Assembly (NCBI RefSeq): GCF_000020725.1
Contig: NC_011146.1
Location: forward strand, 2,975,501-3,039,500
Length of the DNA stretch: 64,000 nucleotides
Direction: 5' to 3'
Source: Citrifermentans bemidjiense Bem
GTDB taxonomy: Bacteria; Desulfobacterota; Desulfuromonadia; Geobacterales; Geobacteraceae
Part shown: positions 53,130 to 64,000 of the stretch, one piece after another
Position numbering within the stretch: position 1 is the stretch's first letter
Layout of the letters: every line of letters begins with the position of its first letter
Program-made: the position numbers and the translations under genes
Notes under the pieces: generated by a model
Seen by the model: the letters and a program-made list of their open reading frames with translations, nothing else
The model's database searches: none
Told to the model about the DNA's origin: nothing

Positions 53130-54185
53130 CTAGCCCCTTCTGCGAAAAGCGGAAGCCTTGATTGCCGCATAAAGCTCGCTGCCGACACCAATATCCAGTT
53201 CGTCTGCTGCCTGGTTCACAACCTCTGCAACCAATCGACCTTCGCCGCTCGCCAGTTCCACCCCTACCTTGTTCCCAGAGATAAAAGTACTGGTCACCGT
53301 GCATTGCAGCAGATTCCGCGCGCTGATTACCTCGGGGTGCTTCTTGCACAAGATGATGTCCTTGGATGAAAGTTCGAAGAGTGCCTCATGCTGCTCACTG
53401 CCTGCGGAGATAAGAAGTTCGCCTGCGCCCCATCTGTAAGCGTACAGGTCATTTGCCCTACGGCGGCGGGTGAGTTTCAGCAGATTGATGTAGCCTACCG
53501 GACTAAGATCCATACGGGACCGGGCAAGTTGCTCGGACGTCGTCTGTGCGACGATCGCACCGCCCGATACGACAACAACCTGATCCGCCATGAGCCGCGT
53601 TTCCACAAGAGAATGCGAGATGAAGAGATAAGGAATCCGCAACTGCTCACTGACTCTCTTGAGATAGGGAATAATCTGAAACCTGAGAGTATCGTCAAGC
53701 GCAGACAAAGGCTCGTCCATCAGCAGAAGCCGGGGATTGGAAAGCAGAGCCCGCCCAAGCGCTACCCGCTGTTTCTCGCCACCGGAGAGGTTGCTGATGC
53801 CGCGCCTCAGTAGATCCCGCAGGTTGAGTACCTCTACCAGTGCATCGAAATCTATGCTGCGATGTTCCGGTTTGCAGCGCCGGTATCCATACAGCAAATT
53901 AGTCTTCACATCCAGGTGGGGGAAGAGACAATGTTGCTGAAATACAATGGCGATCCTCCGTTGTTCCGGCGGAACATTGATCCTTTTGCTGCTGCTGAAA
54001 AGGGAGTCCCCATCGACGCTGATTTCCCCCCGATCCGGCTGCTGCAACCCGGCCAGAAATCCGACCAAGGTTGACTTGCCGCTACCCGACGGACCGAAAA
54101 TGCCTATACGCTCACCTGCCATCGCCACATCGGCCTGCAAAGAGAAGTCTCCGAGCCGTTTCTCTACGGAAATCCTGATATCCAT
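53130..54185 (-). CDS. modC: Molybdate/tungstate ABC transporter ATPase
   Basis: A 351-residue ABC ATPase. Walker A GPSGSGKST, Q-loop VFQQHCLFPHLDVKTNLLYG, signature LSGGEKQRVALGRAL, Walker B LLLMDEPLSALDD; a C-terminal TOBE/Mop-like domain (SARNLLQCTVTSTFISGNKV on) that may bind the oxyanion for feedback. ATG at 54185 has GGAGGTGA before it. Last gene of the riboswitch-led operon. Confidence 0.93.
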   Translation of the reverse strand: MDIRISVEKRLGDFSLQADVAMAGERIGIFGPSGSGKSTLVGFLAGLQQPDRGEISVDGDSLFSSSKRINVPPEQRRIAIVFQQHCLFPHLDVKTNLLYGYRRCKPEHRSIDFDALVEVLNLRDLLRRGISNLSGGEKQRVALGRALLSNPRLLLMDEPLSALDDTLRFQIIPYLKRVSEQLRIPYLFISHSLVETRLMADQVVVVSGGAIVAQTTSEQLARSRMDLSPVGYINLLKLTRRRRANDLYAYRWGAGELLISAGSEQHEALFELSSKDIILCKKHPEVISARNLLQCTVTSTFISGNKVGVELASGEGRLVAEVVNQAADELDIGVGSELYAAIKASAFRRRG

Positions 54186-54186
54186 T

Positions 54187-54870
54187 TCACCTCCTCCTTG
54201 CCAGCTTCTTGCCGAATACTTCATGGGAGAAGAGAACTAGCACTGAAATGGCGATGGACACGGCACAAAGCGACAGTGCAAGATCTTCGCTTGTGGGGGA
54301 ACTGGCATAGTCGTAGATGGCCAGCGGGATGGTCTGGGTGACGCCGGGAATATTGCCGGCCACAATGATAGTCGCGCCGAATTCTCCAAGACTGCGGGCA
54401 AACATGAGGGACGAACCGGCTATGATCCCGTGCAAAGAAAGCGGCAGAATTACGGTAACTAGGGTGTCATGCCACGTGGCGCCTAGAGTTCGCGACGCCT
54501 GAATCAGTTGAATGTCAATTGACTCCATCCCGATCCTGATGGACCTGACCAACAGAGGGAACCCGACACAAGCAGATGCAATAACCGCAGCCTTCCAGGT
54601 GAAGATGAGCCGGATCCCGGCTGCATCCAGTAGCGAACCGAGCCACCCGTTCTTGCCCAGCAGCAGAAGAAGTAAATAGCCTATTACCACAGGAGGCAGC
54701 GTTAACGGCAGGTTAACCACCACTTCAAGCAACACTTTCCCCTTGAAATCGCGAAAGGTAAGCAGGTAGGCAAAGGCAACCCCAAAGGGAAGCGATACGG
54801 CCATAGCCGCCGCAGCCACCTTTATGGAGAGCCGTATGGCATCGTAATCTGTGCTTGTCAGCGCGAGCAT
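54187..54870 (-). CDS. modB: Molybdate/tungstate ABC transporter permease
   Basis: A 227-residue permease with five or six spans and the EAA-loop cytoplasmic text IQLIQASRTLGATWHDTLVT. LTLPPVVIGYLLLLLLGKNG is typical of ModB. ATG at 54870 has GGAG 6 nt upstream; TTG at 54900 is the next alternative. Forms the channel with ModC. Confidence 0.92.
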   Translation of the reverse strand: MLALTSTDYDAIRLSIKVAAAAMAVSLPFGVAFAYLLTFRDFKGKVLLEVVVNLPLTLPPVVIGYLLLLLLGKNGWLGSLLDAAGIRLIFTWKAAVIASACVGFPLLVRSIRIGMESIDIQLIQASRTLGATWHDTLVTVILPLSLHGIIAGSSLMFARSLGEFGATIIVAGNIPGVTQTIPLAIYDYASSPTSEDLALSLCAVSIAISVLVLFSHEVFGKKLARRR

Positions 54871-54919
54871 TTGCATCTCCAGGATAAAAAGCAAGTTCAA
54901 GTCTGGTTGGCAGCCAGCG

Positions 54920-55663
54920 TTATTTCACAAAGCCGTATCTTCTCAAAACGACTTTGGCCTCCGCACTTTGGAGGAACCTATAAAATGAAGCAGCGTCACT
55001 GTTCTTCGCTCCGGTGACAGTCAGAGCCATGGGGTAGATCACCGGCGGATAGAGTCCCTGAGGAACGGTGAAGAGAACTGTTGCCTTCTTTGCCTGCAGC
55101 GCATCGGTCAGGTAAACAAATGCGCCATCTACCTCTCCCCGTTCGGCGTAGGTGAGACAGTCGCGCGCGTCTCTGGCCATGACCAGCTTGTTCTCCCATT
55201 CTTTGTCCTTGCCGGCTCTTTTGATAGCCTCCATGGCATATGCTCCTGCCGGAACACTCTTCGGGCTGCCGATAGCGATGTTGTGGAGTTTGAAGAGATC
55301 ATTCATGCCGGATACCTTCTTGCCTGAAGAGCCTATAAAAACCAGCGTATTGTAGGTGAAGGTGCCGATACTTGCTGCATCCACCAATTTCCTGTTCTTC
55401 AAATAGCTCATCCACTCAAGGTTTGCTGAGATGTACATGTCGGATGGCGCACCGCTTTCTATCTGCTTTGCCAGAGCGCCCGAAGCACCATAATTTTTCT
55501 GAAATCTTACGTCGGGATGCTTCTTGGCAAAACCGTCAGCCAATTCATTCACCACGTCCTTGAGACTGGCTGCGACCGATAGTTTGACCTCGCCAGCCAA
55601 TGTCCGCACCGGCAATAGCAGAAGACAGAAAAGACACAGCAGCTTAATTGTCGGCTCTTTCAT
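54920..55663 (-). CDS. modA: Molybdate/tungstate-binding periplasmic protein
   Basis: A 247-residue substrate-binding protein with a signal peptide (LLCLFCLLLLPVRTLA). VKLSVAASLKDVVNELADGF, NYGASGALAKQIESGAPSDM and GQVDGAFVYLTDAL-like text (ERGEVDGAFVYLTDALQAKK) are the ModA ligand-binding segments. ModA proteins bind both oxyanions; given the neighbouring W-enzyme, tungstate may be the working substrate. Confidence 0.92.
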   Translation of the reverse strand: MKEPTIKLLCLFCLLLLPVRTLAGEVKLSVAASLKDVVNELADGFAKKHPDVRFQKNYGASGALAKQIESGAPSDMYISANLEWMSYLKNRKLVDAASIGTFTYNTLVFIGSSGKKVSGMNDLFKLHNIAIGSPKSVPAGAYAMEAIKRAGKDKEWENKLVMARDARDCLTYAERGEVDGAFVYLTDALQAKKATVLFTVPQGLYPPVIYPMALTVTGAKNSDAASFYRFLQSAEAKVVLRRYGFVK

Positions 55664-55685: not shown

Positions 55686-57069
55686 TCAGATACGAAGCGC
55701 GGTTATGACCGCTGAACAGCTTGAGGCTCTCTGGGATAGATCTATTCCCCGCCTGTCCAGGATTTGACGCTTGGCAACGCCTGTCCCCGGCCATCCAGTC
55801 GGACAAAACGTGATGCTCCCCAAGGCCAGTACCTTATCCCGCCAAAGCACCCTCGTGGCATCCTGGCTGAGCAGGGCCGACCTCGCCTTTCGGGCTACCT
55901 GCTCCTCCTCCCCTTTAACGGTTTGAAAGCAAAGACGAAGCTGGTCCCGCCCCACCCGCACCTCAATCTCTGCCCTGTAGTCCAGCACACCCGGGATCGC
56001 GAAGAGCGCCTCGTCCAACTCGTTCATTCGAAGACGTCTCCCGTCCTTGAGAGCGACTTCCGCCGCGATCCTGCCCTGCACCCGTCCAAGGCGCTTCAGC
56101 ACGGTGCCGCAGGGGCATGGTTCTTTGATAAGACGTGCCAGATCACCGGTCCGGTAACGCACCAGCGGCATGCCGCGACGGGAAATGGTCGTGAATACCA
56201 CCTCCCCTTCCTCCCCGTCGGCCACAGTCAATCCGGTGCCAGGGTCGATGATTTCGGTGTAAAGATCCGCCTCGCGCAGGTGGTACCCCTCCCCGGCCTG
56301 GCATTCGACCCCTCCTCCCAGGCCGGTCTCGGTCATGCCGTAATGTGTCAGCACCCGGCAGCCCCAAAGCTGCTCCAGCTCCCGCTCTATTGCCTCCGGA
56401 ACGTAATCGGTGGAAAGAAGGACGCTCTCCACCCACCCCCTCGGAATCGCCCCCGCGAGGTCCCCGCGTGCCAGGGCCAGCATCTGGGTGGGGATTCCGA
56501 CCAGGCAGGGGCGAGGGTGCTTCATTATTTCCGCTCGCGCCGCAGCCGGGTCACGCACCGGTCCCCACACCACCGGGTTCACCTTTGTCCTGACCAGGGC
56601 CCGCGCCAACAGATCGCCCACGCTGTCCCGCAACTCCCCGGGGAGAAAGATGAGCACCGTGGCGCCCGGAGCCACCAGGGTCGCCATCCCGTGCGCGAAG
56701 AAGTCGACGGTGGCCTCCAGGTCCTCGGCTGTGAAGTAAATCCTCTTGGGCTGGCCGGTGGTTCCCGAACTCTGCAGCGTTACCACCCTTTTGATCTCGT
56801 CCTGCGACGTGCACAACATCCTCCCCCCCTTGCTCCCGAAGGTCGTTTGCGGTCGTGAAGGGTAGCTGGGAGAAGCTTTTAAAGTCAAAGGTGGACTCCG
56901 AGTCGATGCCGGAGAAGAGGTCGCGGTAGAAGGGGCTCTTTTCCCTGACGTAGGCGACGGTCTCACTCAGTTTCCGTAATTGGTACCGGGCGATCTGCTC
57001 ATCCAGGGTTCCGTCACGGTGACCACTCACCTTTCCCCGAAGCCATCCCTCAAGCGGGGTCATTTTCAT
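55686..57069 (-). pseudogene. AMP-dependent CoA ligase (DVU_1553 type), frame broken at a G7 run
   Basis: Two overlapping frames together give one adenylate-forming ligase of about 460 residues, in the phenylacetate-CoA-ligase-like DVU_1553 group. Frame one (from ATG 57069, ATGA with the radical SAM stop) has MKMTPLEGWLRGKVSGHRDG ... FTTANDLREQGG; frame two continues GGRMLCTSQDEIKRVVTLQS with P-loop SSGTTGQPKR and acyl-AMP motif YGMTETGLGGG. They meet at seven Gs (56823-56829); six Gs would join them. Loss of function, phase variation, ribosomal slippage or a sequencing error are all possible. The rest is intact, and its usual partners (TrsS etc.) flank it. Confidence 0.8.
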
Positions 57070-58481
57070 AATCCGTCTCCTGGCTGCTTTCTGTAGAGGC
57101 TTTTCCCCTCTCGGCTGGTGAGGTTGTAGGCGCAGAAGGGGACCAGCTTTCCGTCGGGGGATATCACCGAAATGCAGCATCCCTTAAGCCGCTCCAGATC
57201 AAGGTTCTCGGCATCCTGAAAGGCCATGGCGGATATGGTGAAGCTCCTGGTGGAGACCTCCTTGAGAAATACGTCCAAGTCGACCGGGCCCTCGACCCGG
57301 GTGGTCTCAGGCGCGCTCCCGCCGCAGCAGCACGATCCAGAAGTCGAAGTGGCGTTGGGAAATTGAACTCCAGGCGGCAGTTTCCAGCGACGCGACACCG
57401 TATCGACGGTTTGCCGGATCCCCCCGCTGCCGCAATCCGTCGTACAGCAGGAGTCGCCGCCCACAGCCCCCAACGGGCGGAGTCCGCCGTTTGCCGAGTA
57501 GAGGTACGTGGCGTGCATGGAGCAGTGAGCATGTTCCCCGCCGGGGGGAGAAAAATCCTCCACCTTGAGCAGTTTCCCGGTCTGTTCTTCAAGGCACCTC
57601 ATCAGTTCGGGAAGGGTGAACCGGTCCGCGCCACACTCTTCCTCGGGGAAGCGGCCGAAATAGCTGACCGGCTGGAAATGGATGCCCCGCACGACCGGGG
57701 CAAGCTGCAGGGCTTGCCGCACTATGGCTCCGACAGCATCGGTGTTGACCCCTCTGACCAGCGTAGGGACGAAGACCACCCCGAGGCCGGCCTCTCCGGC
57801 ATTTCTGACGGCCAAAAGTTTCTGCTCCAAAAGCGCTCTTCCCCTCAAGGTACGGTAAATTTCGTCGTCAACACCGTCGAACTGGAGGAAGACCGACGAA
57901 AGCCCCGCAGCCTGCAGCCGCTGCGCGTACGCTCTGTCACTGGCAAGGCGCAGGCCATTGGTATTCACCTGGATGAAGGAGAAGCCGATCCGCCGCGCTG
58001 CTTCCACGATCTCCGGAAGGTCGTCCCGCAGGGTCGGCTCGCCCCCCGACAGCTGCAGGCTGCACGCCCCCGCCGCCGCCATGGCCCGTTCCAACAACCA
58101 GGAGATCCGCTCAAGGGAAGGATCCTCTGTACCCTTAGGGCCGGCATCGGCAAAGCAGAACGCGCATTGCAGGTTGCAGCGGTCCGTCACTTCGAGCAGG
58201 ACGGAACAAGGGAGCTGCCGATGGTCGCTGCAGAGGCCGCAATCGAAAGGGCACCCCTTGTCGAGGGTTCCATAGCAAAGTTCGGGATGGACAGGTGCCT
58301 TAGGCCTGCGCCATTTTGCCAGCGAAGGCTCTCCGCGCCAGATGAGGGTCTTGAAGGCGCCGTGTTCTGCGCACCGTTTGACCTGGAACACCTCGTCGGC
58401 CACCAATAATCGTTCGGCCGGGATTCTTTTGAGGCAAACGGGGCAGACGCTTTCGGTTGCATCGGGACCGGTAGTTTTCAT
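57066..58481 (-). CDS. trsS: Radical SAM protein, TrsS-like
   Basis: A 471-residue radical SAM protein. N-terminal zinc-type cysteines (CPVC at 13-16; CPFDCGLC at 77-84), then the SAM cluster CNLQCAFC with C102, C106 and C109, and a Cys-rich C-terminal part (SCCTTDCGSGG; GSCCCGGS), closing with LKGCCISVISPDGKLVPFCA. The layout fits the MJ0619/TrsS group, known as a (seleno)protein next to TrsM and a DVU_1553-type ligase in Desulfovibrio; here it uses Cys, no in-frame UGA seen. Reaction unknown. ATG at 58481 follows AAAGG; 5 bp after the C_GCAxxG_C_C gene. Confidence 0.8.
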   Translation of the reverse strand: MKTTGPDATESVCPVCLKRIPAERLLVADEVFQVKRCAEHGAFKTLIWRGEPSLAKWRRPKAPVHPELCYGTLDKGCPFDCGLCSDHRQLPCSVLLEVTDRCNLQCAFCFADAGPKGTEDPSLERISWLLERAMAAAGACSLQLSGGEPTLRDDLPEIVEAARRIGFSFIQVNTNGLRLASDRAYAQRLQAAGLSSVFLQFDGVDDEIYRTLRGRALLEQKLLAVRNAGEAGLGVVFVPTLVRGVNTDAVGAIVRQALQLAPVVRGIHFQPVSYFGRFPEEECGADRFTLPELMRCLEEQTGKLLKVEDFSPPGGEHAHCSMHATYLYSANGGLRPLGAVGGDSCCTTDCGSGGIRQTVDTVSRRWKLPPGVQFPNATSTSGSCCCGGSAPETTRVEGPVDLDVFLKEVSTRSFTISAMAFQDAENLDLERLKGCCISVISPDGKLVPFCAYNLTSREGKSLYRKQPGDGL

Positions 58482-58486
58482 GACCT

Positions 58487-58927
58487 TTATCCTTTCCTGC
58501 CAGCTGCGGGTTCGAACCCGTGGCTTGCCAGTATTTCCATGCATTTGTCATAGGTTTCCGCCACAATCTGGCCGCATTTGCCGTGACCGGGAAACTTCTC
58601 AAGGATTTCGTCGCATCGCGTCCCGCCGTACTCACGGGCGGCAACCTCCCTGAACCACCCCGCCAGCTCGCCCATCATCGTCATATGCCGCTCGTCGAGG
58701 GCCTCTTCCTCGCCTCCTTTGCCAGAATACAGGGAGATAACGCAGGCTCCTCCGGAAAGGGCTCCGCAGAACTCGCCGCTCCAGTTGCCGAAACAGAGTC
58801 CCCCGACGGATCTCACCAGGTCGTCATTGGTCTTCCCTTGGGCCTTGAGGGCGAGTATTACGATGAGTTGTGCGCAACAGTACCCTTTGGGCCTCAGCTT
58901 TATTAGCTGCAGGAATATGTCGTTCAT
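58487..58927 (-). CDS. C_GCAxxG_C_C family protein (DVU_1555 type)
   Basis: A 146-residue Cys-rich protein. GYCCAQLIVILALKAQGKTN, then FGNWSGEFCGALSGGACVIS (the GCAxxG stretch, here CGALSGG), and later Cys in GTRCDEILEKFPGHGKCGQI. Members are thought to hold metal or redox cysteines. ATG at 58927 overlaps the upstream methyltransferase stop (ATGA) and follows GGGAGGGGAAATC. It has the same neighbours in Desulfovibrio trs loci. Confidence 0.88.
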   Translation of the reverse strand: MNDIFLQLIKLRPKGYCCAQLIVILALKAQGKTNDDLVRSVGGLCFGNWSGEFCGALSGGACVISLYSGKGGEEEALDERHMTMMGELAGWFREVAAREYGGTRCDEILEKFPGHGKCGQIVAETYDKCMEILASHGFEPAAGRKG

Positions 58928-59610
58928 GATTTCCCCTCCCTTACGTTTCCGGTTGCTTCGAAAATCGCCCCCTCTCTCCGGGCAACCAAAATGTAGTAGC
59001 TGAGGCCGCACCCCGAAAACTGCGGCAGGGATCTGCCGGCAAATATCATGCGTACGGCGAACTCCTTGAGCAGCCGGTCGTGCACTTCCCAAAGCAATAC
59101 GGTGAACCCCCGCTGCGATAGCGAGTCAAGGAGTTCCTCCTGCGAGAAAAGCATGTCCGCTTTTTCCTTCTTTCCGTGACAGGCTTTGCTGAAAACGTCA
59201 CTTAAGACCAGAAAACCACCGTCCTTAACCACCCGAGTAAACTCGTCGAGAGCCGCCGGCTTGTCGTCGACAATTGAAAGGACGCATTCGCAAAAGAGGG
59301 CATCGAAGGTTTCCTGCTCGAAGGGGAGATTTTCTGCCCGCCCGTAGACGAGTCGAGCCGTTTCCAGCCTGGCGGCTGCCACCGCGAGAAGCGGCGCTGA
59401 AGCGTCGACCCCTACCAGCCGGAAAAAGCGGGTTCGTTCAAGGTGCAGCAACGTCCCGCCCGCGCCGCAGCCGATATCGGCGACCAAAGAACCAGCCGGA
59501 AGATCGCAGACCTCCAACGCCCTCTCCGTCAGCGCCGGGCCTCCCGGACGCAGGCACGTCCCCACTGCGTCATGAATCTCCAGCCAGTTACATGCAGTAT
59601 CGTTCATCAT
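58924..59610 (-). CDS. trsM: SAM-dependent methyltransferase, TrsM-like (DVU_1556 type)
   Basis: A 228-residue class I methyltransferase. Motif I VADIGCGAGGTLLHLERTRF, acidic loop LVGVDASAPLLAVAAARLET, and motif VYGRAENLPFEQETFDALFC. The C-terminus ends with FSGCGLSYYILVARREGAIF. By neighbours it belongs to the TrsM group. ATG at 59610 has GGGAAGG 5 nt upstream. The target is unknown, possibly the product of TrsS chemistry. Confidence 0.78.
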   Translation of the reverse strand: MMNDTACNWLEIHDAVGTCLRPGGPALTERALEVCDLPAGSLVADIGCGAGGTLLHLERTRFFRLVGVDASAPLLAVAAARLETARLVYGRAENLPFEQETFDALFCECVLSIVDDKPAALDEFTRVVKDGGFLVLSDVFSKACHGKKEKADMLFSQEELLDSLSQRGFTVLLWEVHDRLLKEFAVRMIFAGRSLPQFSGCGLSYYILVARREGAIFEATGNVREGKS

Positions 59611-59632
59611 TGTCACCTTCCCAGCGGTAGCA

Positions 59633-60115
59633 CTACTTGTCTTCCAGCGCCTGCTCTGCCTCGGCCACCTTTCCTATTGCCAGTTCCTCGTCGATCAGTA
59701 TGAATCCGCAACTGGAACAGGCCGGAAGATTGATGGGGAATATCGACTGCATGTACTGAAGTCGAACTGTTTGAACTTCAAGGGGAGTCCGGCACTGGTC
59801 GCAATGCCAGTCGCTCCCGGCTCCGGACTTGACCCATTCATTTGTGCTTCCGCTCGACTTCAACACCATCCTGTGCGAATAGGCGGTAAAGACACGATAG
59901 GCTTCATCGGTCCGGCTGTACTCCACCCAGTAGGTGACCGCTTTCGGGCGGTAGAAGGCGAGAGACCGGCCGGTACACCTGTGGACCAGCTTCTTCCCCG
60001 TGGCCTCGGCATGCTGGATGACTTTTTGTACGTCCTCTCTCAGGATCAGGCGACCCTCCAAAAGGCGCTCACCCTCCTCGGAAATGTCTAAAACAATATG
60101 CTCATAAGAGTTCAT
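59633..60115 (-). CDS. Small CxxC-CxxC redox protein (DVU_1557 type)
   Basis: A 160-residue protein with two Cys pairs, WHCDQCRTPLE and LPACSSCGFILIDEE, spaced as in a zinc ribbon or rubredoxin-like site in the C-terminal half; the N-terminal half (ILREDVQKVIQHAEATGKKL, FYRPKAVTYWVEYS) has no recognised motif. The DVU_1557 family is described as a redox protein with TrsS/TrsM. ATG at 60115 has GGAAG 8 nt before it; an ATG four codons earlier lacks one. Confidence 0.75.
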   Translation of the reverse strand: MNSYEHIVLDISEEGERLLEGRLILREDVQKVIQHAEATGKKLVHRCTGRSLAFYRPKAVTYWVEYSRTDEAYRVFTAYSHRMVLKSSGSTNEWVKSGAGSDWHCDQCRTPLEVQTVRLQYMQSIFPINLPACSSCGFILIDEELAIGKVAEAEQALEDK

Positions 60116-60178
60116 AGATTCTTCCATCTTGATGCGGAACTGTAATGAGAGTTCGATGCATCATCCCCTGCGTCCATG

Positions 60179-60341: not shown

Positions 60342-60875
60342 CTACCCCTTCTTTGCCATGCGGGCGACTGTGTCTACTACATTCTGCAACCCGTGTTTCT
60401 TTGCGAACTGTTCCAGGCCGATCTCCATCTGTGTCATATTCGGTTTTTCCTCTTCCACTTCCTCTTCCCGTTCCTCGTAGCTCAAGGCGTCCACGAGGCA
60501 CCACTTGACGCAGATCGGCTCATCTTCGCCATCGCACATGTCGCACTTGAGAGGAAGGCCGGAGTCGGGCTCCTTGAACAGGTCCCTTGCCGGGCAGGAA
60601 GCACGGCAGGAGTCGCACTCGCGGTACTCCTTGCCGTCGATGATGTACTTGTTTCTCCCCATGCACTCGGCCTCGGTGTACTCTCCGGCAAATACGGGAA
60701 GCCAGATGTCCTCAAGCCGGTCGGTGATGATCTGGATGCGGGACCGTCCCGGATTGTTGCTGCTGTAGGGGGGAACAGCGTGGAAAGCCGAACACATCAC
60801 CTCACAGGTCCGACAACCGTTGCACTTGTCCGCATTGACAGTGATCGTTCTGATCTTTTTCTTAATTTTCGCCAT
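60342..60875 (-). CDS. Ferredoxin-like electron-transfer protein, BamC-like
   Basis: A 177-residue protein with exactly 12 cysteines: C18, C21, C24, C28 (CNGCRTCEVMC), C71, C87, C90, C94 (CDSCRASC), C111, C114, C122 and C126 (CDMC...CVKWC). That is enough for three [4Fe-4S] clusters. The pattern, with a charged C-terminal helix, resembles the BamC subunit that partners BamB in class II benzoyl-CoA reductase. Its ATG overlaps the tail of the W-enzyme gene by 14 bp, supporting a complex. Electron partner unknown. Confidence 0.85.
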   Translation of the reverse strand: MAKIKKKIRTITVNADKCNGCRTCEVMCSAFHAVPPYSSNNPGRSRIQIITDRLEDIWLPVFAGEYTEAECMGRNKYIIDGKEYRECDSCRASCPARDLFKEPDSGLPLKCDMCDGEDEPICVKWCLVDALSYEEREEEVEEEKPNMTQMEIGLEQFAKKHGLQNVVDTVARMAKKG

Positions 60876-62832
60876 TTTTCAGTATCCCCCTTTTTTCCAA
60901 GTCGTTAGCGACATAGCCCAGTCCCAGCTCTTCCAGTTTTTCTCTAGTGGGAATACCGTCTTCGTTCCATCCCTTGTATCTGTAATAGGTCGACAACAGT
61001 TCTTCTTCCAGCTCGGGGAATCTCTTTTTCCAGTGATCGGTTGGCGGCTTCTCATCGGCCCTTCTGATCCCTTTCCTGTTGTTGTATGCCCTGTGCAGGT
61101 TCCGGTTCCTGTTGGCGATTTCTTTCAGCCCATCCTCGTCCAGGTCCATTCCGGTCGCGGCAGAGATCAATTTGGGATAGTTGTGGATGTGGTAAGGAGG
61201 TTTCAGGCAGAACGACGACATGCCGCAGCACATGCCTACTGCATCGTCGATGTTGTGCATCATCTCCATCCAGTCGACGATTTCGGAGCACATGTCCGGT
61301 GTCGGATAATACGGGATGGCCTTTTCTCCCCTCAGTTCCCAGTCCAGTACCCATTGCTTGAATTTATCATGGGGAATTTGGGGCCAATCCCTTACGAACT
61401 CCTCTCTCTGCTCCGGGGTTGGAAAAGCCGACTGGGGCCATTGCCCTTCCATCTGGGTGATGCTTATCTTCTCGTTGGTGGCGTACATGAGGAAGTAGAG
61501 CGGATCCAGCGTTCCGAGCTTGACCGGGAGTTGCTCGTGCTTCTTGATGGTGTTGTGATCGAAGGCCTCGGCGCCGTTGCCGATCTTGCGGGCCGCGAAA
61601 TAAACGCCGTCAGCCAGGACGTCGCCGATTCCTTCCCGCCGCACGACCCTGTCGAGAAGCCAGAAGAACCTTCCCTCTTTATCGGATGGACAGCCGGCGA
61701 AGTCCTTGTCCGTCAGGATGCCCGCTTCATAGAGTTCAACGGCGAAGGCCAGGATTTGAGGGGTCGAGAATGAGTCGACGCCGTACTCGGTAGCGCGTTG
61801 CAGGATCTTCCAGGAGAAGTCCAAGTCATCGACGTAGGCCGCCATGGCATAGGTGAGTTTCCCGAAGCATTTCGCCATATATCGCGGGGTATCTTTGTGG
61901 GAAATCAGCGCCCCGCAATGCGTAGGACAGTTAAAGCAGCTTATCAACCGCTTTACCGCTGCATGTTGTGACTTCGACCAGGACTCGTCGATTTCTTCGG
62001 TCCAGAAGTCTCTTCTCCTGGTGCGGGCATTGCCCCAGGCAAAGTTCTCCGTGTGCCACTTTTCGTCCGTATGCAGCATCTCCTGCGGCGAGCCGATGCC
62101 GGACAAGATAGTCATGACATCCTTGATGGGGTTGGCCCACCTGTACTTGATGTAGTCCGTCACCCCCTTCATCTGTTCCATAAACTCTTCAGGCCGGGCG
62201 AGATAGATGTCCTTCGTTCCACGAACGGCAATTGCCTTTATCTTCTTGTCTCCCATGACAGCGCCGCCGCCGAGCCTGCTGGCGCTCGACCTTGACTGCT
62301 CGATAGAAGCCGTGAAGACCCGGTTCTCGCCGGCAAGGCCTATTGCCGCCACCTGTGCTTTGGGCAGATTCAGTTCTTTGCGAATAAGCTCCTGAGTTTC
62401 AACGGCGCCTCTTCCCTGCAGATGCGAGGCGTCGCGTATCTCTACCTTGTCGTTGTTGATGTACAGGTACACCCAGTTGGGCGACTTGTTCTTGAAGATC
62501 ACCTTGTCGTAGCCGGCATACTTCAGTTCCGCCGCGAAAAATCCCCCCATCATGGGGTAGGCCAACGTCCCCGACTGCGGTGAAACGAAGGTGACAACGG
62601 AACGGTTGGCACTGAAAGCAGGCGTAGCATTCAAAAGGCCGGTACTGAAGATAAGGTGGTTTTCAGGGTCAAACGCCTTAACCTCTGGCGGGACCCGGTC
62701 CCAATGTTCCTTGATGCTGGTACCCAATCCTCCCAGATGAAGTTGCATCAGCTTGGGGTCGGTTGCTACGCGTTCGATGTTCCCCGTCGCCAGGTCGATT
62801 TCCAAATAGTATCCTGCCTCTGCGTATCTCAT
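60862..62832 (-). CDS. Tungsten aldehyde:ferredoxin oxidoreductase family enzyme, BamB-like
   Basis: A 656-residue AOR-family enzyme expected to bind a bis-metallopterin tungsten (or molybdenum) cofactor and one [4Fe-4S] cluster. The cluster ligands are CFNCPTHCG (C299, C302, C306) and the DxxGxC motif DAVGMC (C535). RYAEAGYYLEIDLATGNIER opens the AOR N-terminal domain and NTIKKHEQLPVKLG lines the cofactor side. It resembles BamB from memory, but no other bam genes are here, so aldehyde or benzoyl-CoA chemistry cannot be chosen. ATG at 62832 has AGAGAGGTGAAA before it; an in-frame GTG is 6 bp upstream. Confidence 0.9.
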   Translation of the reverse strand: MRYAEAGYYLEIDLATGNIERVATDPKLMQLHLGGLGTSIKEHWDRVPPEVKAFDPENHLIFSTGLLNATPAFSANRSVVTFVSPQSGTLAYPMMGGFFAAELKYAGYDKVIFKNKSPNWVYLYINNDKVEIRDASHLQGRGAVETQELIRKELNLPKAQVAAIGLAGENRVFTASIEQSRSSASRLGGGAVMGDKKIKAIAVRGTKDIYLARPEEFMEQMKGVTDYIKYRWANPIKDVMTILSGIGSPQEMLHTDEKWHTENFAWGNARTRRRDFWTEEIDESWSKSQHAAVKRLISCFNCPTHCGALISHKDTPRYMAKCFGKLTYAMAAYVDDLDFSWKILQRATEYGVDSFSTPQILAFAVELYEAGILTDKDFAGCPSDKEGRFFWLLDRVVRREGIGDVLADGVYFAARKIGNGAEAFDHNTIKKHEQLPVKLGTLDPLYFLMYATNEKISITQMEGQWPQSAFPTPEQREEFVRDWPQIPHDKFKQWVLDWELRGEKAIPYYPTPDMCSEIVDWMEMMHNIDDAVGMCCGMSSFCLKPPYHIHNYPKLISAATGMDLDEDGLKEIANRNRNLHRAYNNRKGIRRADEKPPTDHWKKRFPELEEELLSTYYRYKGWNEDGIPTREKLEELGLGYVANDLEKRGILKNGEN

Positions 62833-62923: not shown

Positions 62924-63112
62924 TCATTCACTTTCTTCCACGCGGAGGCAGGTCTTGACCGAATGCTGGCAAAACCCTCCGCACGGTTCATTGATGCTGA
63001 TTCCCTGCCTGCAGATGTTTTGTTCCATTACCTTAGGGTCGACCGCCACCCGGTCTATGTTTCCCGTCAAGACGTCGACTTCGAGATAGCATCCCGCTTC
63101 TGTGTATTTCAT
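62924..63112 (-). CDS. 62-residue fragment resembling the AOR N-terminus
   Basis: MKYTEAGCYLEVDVLTGNID and RVAVDPKVMEQ match the first ~35 residues of the W-enzyme 92 bp downstream (RYAEAGYYLEIDLATGNIER...); after SINE the two part and the fragment ends in a Cys-rich tail NEPCGGFCQHSVKTC. It has an excellent ribosome-binding site (GGAGGAAAGGAAA) and sits first behind the riboswitches. It may be a leftover of a duplicated enzyme gene, or a functional leader/small protein. Confidence 0.65.
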   Translation of the reverse strand: MKYTEAGCYLEVDVLTGNIDRVAVDPKVMEQNICRQGISINEPCGGFCQHSVKTCLRVEESE

Positions 63113-63233: not shown

Positions 63234-63268
63234 AAAAAAGGGGCGTCTCTTGGATAGAGAGGCCCCTT
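63234..63268 (-). terminator. Rho-independent terminator of riboswitch copy B
   Basis: On the minus strand GGGGCCTCT...AAGAGACGCCCC is followed by TTTTTT. The same GGGG also pairs with CCCC next to the aptamer as part of an antiterminator, so only one structure can form at a time. It lies about 122 bp before the 62-residue gene. Confidence 0.85.
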
Positions 63269-63298
63269 GACGGTTCCGGACGCACTCCGGCCGTTGGG

Positions 63299-63395
63299 GT
63301 CTCCTTTGCAAAAGGGAGGCACCGCCGTTTCCAGCGATACCCATAGGCCGGCCCACCCTGAGGGAGATCCCTTTTAGGCGCCACGGCTCGGAGAC
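63299..63395 (-). promoter_or_regulatory. Moco/Tuco riboswitch aptamer, copy B (gene-proximal)
   Basis: On the minus strand GTCTCC (63395-63390) pairs with GGAGAC (63304-63299) as P1; inside are CTCCGAGCC, GGCGCC pairing with GGTGCC, AAAAGGGA and GGTGCCTCCC, the conserved blocks of the molybdenum-cofactor RNA motif. It differs from copy A at one base. The sequence after P1 (CCCCAACGGCCGGA... TCCGGAACCG) can form an antiterminator. The Moco and Tuco forms differ by one stem, which I cannot settle by eye. Confidence 0.85.
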
Positions 63396-63463
63396 TGATT
63401 TTCGGATTTTGGTTGCCGCTACACGCGCTCTCGCTTGGGTGCGGCTTCAAGTACAACAAACGC

Positions 63464-63494
63464 AAAAGGGGCATCTCTGGATAGAGAGGCCCCT
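63464..63494 (-). terminator. Rho-independent terminator of riboswitch copy A
   Basis: On the minus strand GGGGCCTCT...AGAGATGCCCC followed by TTTTGCG. One base shorter in the loop than copy B and a poorer T-run, so it may be leakier. Confidence 0.75.
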
Positions 63495-63525
63495 TGACGG
63501 TTCCGGACGCACTCCGGCCGTTGGG

Positions 63526-63622
63526 GTCTCCTTTGCAAAAGGGAGGCACCGCCGTTTCCAGCGATACCCATAGGCCGGCCCACCTTGAGGGAGATCCCTT
63601 TTAGGCGCCACGGCTCGGAGAC
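63526..63622 (-). promoter_or_regulatory. Moco/Tuco riboswitch aptamer, copy A (promoter-proximal)
   Basis: Same structure as copy B: P1 GTCTCC (63622-63617) with GGAGAC (63531-63526), GGCGCC/GGTGCC stem, and the conserved CTCCGAGCC and GGTGCCTCCC blocks. The 97-nt aptamers differ only at a C/T in the middle. When the cofactor holds P1 closed, the antiterminator cannot form and transcription should stop; this OFF logic is inference from competing pairings. Confidence 0.85.
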
Positions 63623-63716: not shown

Positions 63717-63745
63717 AAGGTACTTTAATACCATTATACTGTCAA
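63717..63745 (-). promoter_or_regulatory. Candidate promoter of the riboswitch-led operon
   Basis: On the minus strand TTGACA (63745-63740) stands 17 bp before TACCTT; a TATAAT lies 1 bp after TTGACA (63738-63733) and could instead be the -10 of a promoter without a clear -35. Either would start RNA about 90-100 nt before aptamer A. Weak but well placed. Confidence 0.35.
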
Positions 63746-64000
63746 GCAAAAATCAGTGTGCACCAGAAGGATATCCCCGCAACGGTAAATGCTGCACCTC
63801 TTTGCTCTCATGTCGGTCTGGAATCTGCCGTCAAAAAGCACTTCCCGCGGCTACTGCAGCTGTGGACAGCGCCAAAAATTGTTCTTCCGTATACGCAGGA
63901 GTTGTGTTAAATGCTTTGCCCATAACCAATCATCTCTCGGAGCTGCGCTGCTTTTCCATGTCCACCGTTATATAAATTTTTATACGTCGCAAGAGGACCC
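63746..64000. other. Right-end intergenic DNA
   Basis: About 255 bp upstream of the promoter candidate. It is more A/T-rich than the rest. A 30-codon minus-strand frame (63923-63831, MGKAFNTTPAYTEEQ...) lacks a good ribosome-binding site, and an 85-codon plus-strand frame has no recognisable content. Nothing can be supported here. Confidence 0.4.

Follow-up and report, generated by a model that had tools for sequence, protein, structure and literature searches.

A serial pair of P3-less Moco-family RNAs, probable OFF riboswitches, upstream of the bamB-2 operon of Citrifermentans bemidjiense

Moco RNAs (Rfam family RF01055) occur in a form without the P3 stem, which tracks genes for the tungsten cofactor (Tuco, also called Wco) in 17 of 19 organisms; the link between the P3-less form and Tuco was published as a correlation and not as a binding measurement, and deletion of P3 from the E. 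coli RNA abolished regulation without a switch to tungsten (Regulski et al. 2008, PMC2408646). Tandem Moco RNAs are described in the same work for Geobacter metallireducens and for Syntrophomonas wolfei, where one operon carries three in a row. A 2022 review (PMC9481103) includes Moco and Wco in its Table 1 of tandem pseudo-cooperative riboswitches, counts two Moco triplets and defines a tandem by the same ligand class, no ORF between the units and a gap of at most 300 nt. For the organism studied here, the Geobacter bemidjiensis genome paper (PMC2996986) reports the presence of riboswitches already known in G. sulfurreducens and G. metallireducens and describes bamB-2 and bamC-2 (Gbem_2620-2619), by description the same genes as those downstream of our locus. 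The passages of that paper on these genes place no riboswitch before bamB-2, and its additional files may list one. In the literature we found no title or abstract start describing an array on bamB-2, with most subscription journals lying outside the coverage of the search.

The window analysed here comprises 64,000 nt of the Citrifermentans bemidjiense Bem chromosome (NC_011146.1, 2,975,501 to 3,039,500). Its locus shares with the P3-less Tuco (Wco) members of RF01055 the full-length matches, the missing P3, the terminator platform and the tandem layout, and with the tandems of the review (PMC9481103) two complete units of the same ligand class with their own platforms before one operon. Its target is bamB-2, whereas the genes that the review names for Wco are others (hydrogenases, arsenic response). 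The locus is a real and conserved serial Wco-type riboswitch on a benzoate-linked operon, in an arrangement of a type already described; the promoter element, a triplet before bamB-2 in a relative and the turnover of copies are the additions of this analysis. We consider it likely that the two RNAs are transcription-terminating OFF riboswitches of the Tuco/Wco type, forming an old array in which the second copy mainly lowers the leak.

The initial annotation had recognized two nearly identical Moco-family aptamers, and the covariance model bears this out. Using cmscan we obtained two RF01055 matches on the minus strand (E 9e-13 for copy 1 and 1.5e-12 for copy 2; Table 1), both spanning the full model (1-135) and lying above its curated gathering score of 36, while no other Rfam family reached its gathering threshold in the 64-kb window. 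As described before, each aptamer measures 97 nt from P1 to P1 and a single base separates them (A versus G, at a position in the internal loop of P2; 1 of the 99 aptamer columns aligned). They are embedded in a wider direct repeat of 148 nt with 99% identity and a pitch of 227 nt. The two matches are 106 nt apart with no gene-like ORF between two complete aptamer-plus-platform units, as in pseudo-cooperative tandems; a 107-aa mechanical ORF that overlaps the array does not look gene-like by eye (the listing covered ORFs of at least 80 aa). The P3 columns are deleted in both cmscan alignments, and this absence is the mark of the proposed Tuco/Wco variant. In total the genome contains four RF01055 copies. 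Besides the pair, one (L001/L053; L and G numbers are our handles for loci and genomes) precedes a moeA-like gene and lacks P3 by alignment, and another (L004) precedes an aldehyde-oxidoreductase-like gene, its P3 status being judged from length alone (122 nt against 135 model positions); both gene identities were assigned by eye.

Table 1: Features of the array and of the operon downstream, in window coordinates
Feature	Position	Strand	Basis
Promoter element TTGACA..TGGTATTAAAGTAC	63720..63745	-	pattern made from this site; resembles element near bamB-1
Aptamer copy 1, without P3	63512..63632; P1 to P1 63526-63622	-	RF01055, 63.0 bits
Copy 1 P1 3' strand plus CCCC (GGAGACCCC), half of P1 or of antiterminator	63523..63531	-	folding; pairing counted over 14 units
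Copy 1 terminator 5' arm, also antiterminator 3' half	63483-63493	-	folding
Copy 1 intrinsic terminator, short U-run	63464..63495	-	-18.4 kcal/mol; nT 3.22
Aptamer copy 2, without P3	63285..63405; P1 to P1 63299-63395	-	RF01055, 62.2 bits
Copy 2 P1 3' strand plus CCCC, common half of P1 or antiterminator	63296..63304	-	folding
Copy 2 intrinsic terminator, longer U-run	63234..63268	-	-18.5 kcal/mol; nT 4.36
62-aa ORF, BamB-N-like, Cys-rich tail (CGGFCQHS...C)	62924..63112	-	similarity to first 42 BamB residues
bamB-2, homolog of tungsten benzoyl-CoA reductase subunit BamB	60862..62832	-	4z3w_A, 1000.3 bits, residues 3-656
bamC-2, Fe-S subunit homolog	60342..60875	-	4z3w_E, 271.4 bits
DVU_1557/DVU_1556/DVU_1555/TrsS/DVU_1553 family genes (maturation-type)	55686..60127	-	all five above NCBIfam cut-off
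modA, modB, modC, molybdate-type ABC importer	53130..55663	-	TIGR01256, TIGR02141, TIGR02142, all above cut-off

The association with a tungsten-enzyme gene that marks the Tuco/Wco type is found here as well, as the operon encodes a homolog of the BamB of 4z3w. The modABC genes are probably co-transcribed with the bamB-2 genes, judging from the common strand and the short gaps, and since ModABC is of the molybdate type it does not decide which metal is concerned. The DVU_1553 family gene matches only positions 65-331 of the 331 profile positions; a DVU_1553-type ligase gene is apparently split over two reading frames at 55686-57180 (minus strand), while a homolog in L193 reads in one frame. 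The 62-aa ORF, which is the first ORF downstream of the array and has a conserved Cys-rich tail, could be aligned in seven loci, the window included, with 48-98% identity to the window's ORF. Comparison of three Citrifermentans genomes gave dN/dS values of 0.05-0.06 for this ORF; most of the wider pairs lie at 0.08-0.45, and a single close pair has 1.17, based on five changes. Four database proteins were found for it, and it probably corresponds to Gbem_2621, called a 'ferredoxin gene' in the genome paper (PMC2996986). In G. metallireducens the bamB2 homolog Gmet_1802 is up 23.6-fold on benzoate (PMC1924859).

The promoter element upstream of the array resembles sites near benzoate-degradation genes. 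Upstream of the eight arrays compared, TTGAC...GGTA...GTAC is invariant. We searched the genome with a 26-position pattern made from the window's site, allowing three mismatches. Apart from this site, which is exact by construction, the pattern matched with one mismatch at three places and with three mismatches at one; the backward-read control gave 0 matches in the genome. The three one-mismatch places (1665956, 1678494 and 1689590) lie around bamB-1 (1667335), and the genes following them encode a 6-oxocyclohex-1-ene-1-carbonyl-CoA hydratase (TIGR03200, 710.8 bits), an acyl-CoA dehydrogenase (best match glutaryl-CoA dehydrogenase Acd, 435.1 bits, under the cut-off of 470) and a thiolase. The bamB-1 locus (L112) has no RF01055 match, the nearest of the four genome copies being more than 100 kb away. 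A promoter resembling that of benzoate-degradation genes, combined with the aptamer pair, suggests that the pair may add a cofactor gate to the operon. On the far side of the promoter, CGTTATATAAATTTTTATACG at 63966-63986, just before a divergent gene starting beyond the window, resembles a ModE box; a genome search allowing up to three mismatches gave no second site.

Among relatives we searched 57 loci with BamB-like genes. RF01055 doublets are located upstream in five of them (L054-L058), and one full and one cut copy in L094; at least seven of the 57 have less than 400 nt of upstream DNA, so the absence of RF01055 is uninformative there. At the L094 locus of Geotalea toluenoxydans (G063), three copies in series stand upstream of a bamB-2-type gene (L148:747-1295), with pitches of 217 and 213 nt. 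Together with the window and G009 (L034) this gives arrays before bamB-2-type genes in eight loci, with other genes standing between array and bamB in L055 and L094/L148. A ninth is probable on the contig of L060 (L193), where one full match and a cut copy at the contig end (by eye) precede a bcrC-like gene with bamB further on. L089 and L090 each have one longer match 1 to 2 kb upstream.

RF01055 matches were found in 47 of the 58 genomes searched, the window's own included, and at least 11 of these 47 hold a copy pair within about 410 nt (by eye, among the matches listed). Downstream of the doublets in L038, L041 and L042 come an ORF that matches no NCBIfam family and a tupA-like gene (by eye in L041 and L042). 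The tupA-like gene of L038, in G028, scores 250.2 bits to TupA, under the cut-off of 400, and an array upstream of such a tungstate-uptake gene is as feedback OFF control predicts. A further doublet (L037) precedes a gene for a TonB-dependent receptor (237.1 bits). Two other arrangements were observed on minus strands. G023 (L044:4918-5147) carries two back-to-back aptamers before an aldehyde-oxidoreductase-like gene, at a pitch of 110 nt and with no terminator seen between them, possibly a two-aptamer, one-platform form; the matches overlap by about 6 nt, and cmscan reported only one of the two. A sequence pattern for such back-to-back aptamers had candidate matches in 93 of 395 genomes of the phylum (G023 lying outside this sample), but the backward-read control matched many genomes too and the candidate was rejected. 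In G034 (L045:4736-5261) two RF01055 matches flank a Moco-II RNA match (RF01713, 47.1 bits).

The near identity of the copies had been ascribed to recent duplication or gene conversion. In a tree of 17 units the six Citrifermentans units form one clade (100/98), and so do the five Geotalea units (96/98). In G063, copies 2 and 3 group as sisters (98/95); they differ in 7 of 155 columns and have similar spacers. G. argillaceus and SKS3 depart from this genus pattern, their copies 2 pairing across both genomes (85/88). The number of columns in which copies 1 and 2 differ is 3 (of 158) in the window's genome and, out of 157 columns each, 9 in SKS3, 13 in G. argillaceus, 20 in Geotalea sp. SG265 and 31 in STC69. 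Forcing all seven copy-1 units into one clade was rejected (p-AU 2.9e-70) and forcing only the three Citrifermentans copy-1 units was borderline (p-AU 0.0455), tests to be read with the caveat that units under conversion do not evolve as a tree. As copies cluster largely by genus and arrays occur in eight loci, an old array subject to turnover or conversion is a better explanation than a single recent duplication, which is unlikely; a one-off event was also rejected as the source of the near identity because the array is present in seven other loci and not confined to the species. Both an old array with intermittent homogenisation and repeated expansion and loss would fit. In the window's genome the sequences hint that copy 1 may have been locally converted by copy 2, column 40 being a clean and column 51 an unclean site (copy 2 of G009 is without the copy-2 state at 51).

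The gain from a second copy was modelled for identical units that act independently and terminate at most 70-100% of transcripts. Two such units have an effective Hill coefficient of 1.06-1.19, while the leak is squared (e.g., from 10% to 1%), which makes leak control the more likely benefit in this model. The expectation of a sharper response or lower leak would therefore be borne out mainly in its second half, the modelled steepening being small. Together with the single base between the aptamers, this small gain in steepness is what one would expect if the second copy were a recent, selectively neutral duplication with no added effect. We regard this as unlikely, as arrays stand before bamB-2-type genes in eight loci, with three copies in G063, and as the flanks and U-runs of copies 1 and 2 differ in the same manner in three Citrifermentans genomes. 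Moreover, direct repeats are easily lost by recombination, so that their long persistence suggests selection.

The structures were compared on an alignment of 14 units from seven loci. For the bound structure, 89.6% of cells can form the pairs, compared with 41-59% in slid controls, although its inner hairpin (helix 6) is formed in only 65.1%. It contains 9 pairs changed on both sides, where shuffled alignments have a mean of 3.4 and none of 500 reaches 9; further pair types (22 against 19.8 shuffled) are not distinct, as 62 of 500 shuffles reach this value. For the antiterminator the figure is 92.9% of cells, compared with 39-72% in slid controls, with no pair changed on both sides and all 500 shuffles reaching its values, so that its support is conservation and not covariation.

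Each aptamer is followed by a G+C-rich hairpin and a U-run, the energies in Table 1 including the A-U pairs of the hairpin; a simple consensus terminator scan listed neither of the two. It had been proposed that each copy has a terminator and an antiterminator sharing a GGGG segment, and this was confirmed, since the GGGG lies in the terminator 5' arm and also pairs with the CCCC beside the P1 3' strand. In both copies GGAGA of the P1 3' strand and the adjoining CCCC can pair with TCTCT and GGGG of the arm, around the inner hairpin. P1 and antiterminator are mutually exclusive in the computed folds and the terminator lies downstream, which gives each copy an expression platform tied to P1. In secondary-structure energies, which are without ligand or tertiary contacts, P1 (-62.2 kcal/mol) and a nine-pair antiterminator (-61.3 kcal/mol) are less than 1 kcal/mol apart at the end of the 5' arm, with mean pair probabilities of 0.36-0.37 for P1 and 0.47 for the antiterminator. 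Once the terminator is complete, P1 plus terminator reaches -76.2 (copy 1) and -76.3 kcal/mol (copy 2) against -65.7 and -67.8 kcal/mol with the antiterminator enforced, i.e. it is ahead by 10.5 and 8.5 kcal/mol, and the mean P1 pair probability becomes 0.67 and 0.96. In these models both copies look like a poised OFF switch.

The claim that P1 closure would block antitermination, so that either copy alone could stop transcription, agrees with the modelled anatomy of both units, which predicts OFF. Their U-runs are unequal, being short and interrupted in copy 1 (TTTTGCG) and longer in copy 2 (TTTTTTA). With nT values of 3.22 and 4.36 the two terminators are probably not equally strong, and the weaker U-run of copy 1 would lower its share of termination. 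A weak-then-strong order was rejected as a general rule because it fails outside Citrifermentans. In the three Citrifermentans genomes nT is 3.22 for copy 1 and 3.95-4.36 for copy 2, in SG265 the values are about equal (3.90 and 3.95), and in G. argillaceus, SKS3 and STC69 the order is reversed.

An ON switch, in which the bound cofactor promotes read-through, would be natural for a target that uses this cofactor. The folds speak against it, because P1 and antiterminator use the same strand and a closed P1 frees the terminator, and so does the presence of modABC in the operon; we consider it quite improbable. When the 405-nt leader is folded as a whole, the two copies pair with each other in the minimum-energy structure, so independent serial modules require local co-transcriptional folding. 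That the near-identical copies form one composite structure is nevertheless very improbable, since terminator 1 is made before copy 2 is transcribed and relatives outside Citrifermentans retain the array with copies that have diverged further (9-31 differing positions in about 157 columns). Equally hard to credit is a two-input gate with one copy for the molybdenum and the other for the tungsten cofactor, for although the importer is of the molybdate type and mod and tup systems are both reported in the genome paper (PMC2996986), P3 is absent from both copies and the single differing column shows all four bases among the 14 aligned units.

For the serial OFF pair that we favour, the following course can be proposed. 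Transcription would start at a promoter like those of benzoate-degradation genes, known as a sequence element only, and RNA polymerase would pass two independent checkpoints in series. With the cofactor bound, P1 would be held closed, the terminator 5' arm freed and the transcript ended; without it the P1 3' strand would pair with this arm and the polymerase would read on. The operon of bamB-2, bamC-2, maturation genes and modABC would then be made in the presence of an aromatic substrate and under shortage of the tungsten (or molybdenum) cofactor. The main effect of the second copy would be less leak, and recombination or repeated duplication would keep the copies alike within a genus. Why a tungsten enzyme should be turned off by its own cofactor is not self-evident, and such control would make most sense via modABC or via a switch between isoenzymes.

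It is conceivable, though less likely than not, that the array helps to switch between benzoyl-CoA reductase isoenzymes according to tungsten status. A second, scarcity-type reductase with its own metal importer would then be made only under shortage of the tungsten cofactor, and the main bam genes would be transcribed from the same promoter type without a riboswitch. In G016, which matches a metagenome-assembled genome, an RF01055 doublet with a similar promoter (by eye) stands directly before bcrC (L036:1991-2383, contig C252), a class I ATP-dependent benzoyl-CoA reductase gene (TIGR02263, 652.1 bits, cut-off 421.15). If the isoenzyme reading is true, the tungsten enzyme would there be replaced by the tungsten-free class I reductase; cobalamin riboswitches similarly control cobalamin-independent replacement enzymes. 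The bcrC-like gene of L193 (393.5 bits, under the cut-off) also follows RF01055, within a bamB-type gene cluster. As a general rule, a Wco switch before bcrC was rejected: bcrC over the cut-off was found in two of 58 relatives (G016 and G022), with the doublet before one G016 gene only. The contig of the second G016 bcrC (C287) has no RF01055, and in G022 bcrC and RF01055 are on different contigs, which weakens the isoenzyme reading. We take G028 to be Geotalea daltonii, and no RF01055 was found near the bamB genes of G028. In Geotalea daltonii bamB transcripts are down 1.5- to 3-fold with added tungsten, and bamB3 is up with selenite or molybdenum (PMC13119186). As the G028 bamB genes have no RF01055 nearby, the tungsten-linked fall need not come from this riboswitch, and these data were dropped as direct support.

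In Geobacter, anaerobic degradation of aromatics depends on tungsten at the step catalysed by class II benzoyl-CoA reductase. A doubled cofactor switch on the bamB-2 operon that is absent at the main bamB would tie the use of a pollutant-degrading isoenzyme to trace-metal status, and the arrays of two to three copies in related genomes are a natural series for studying what serial riboswitches gain, be it leak or steepness.
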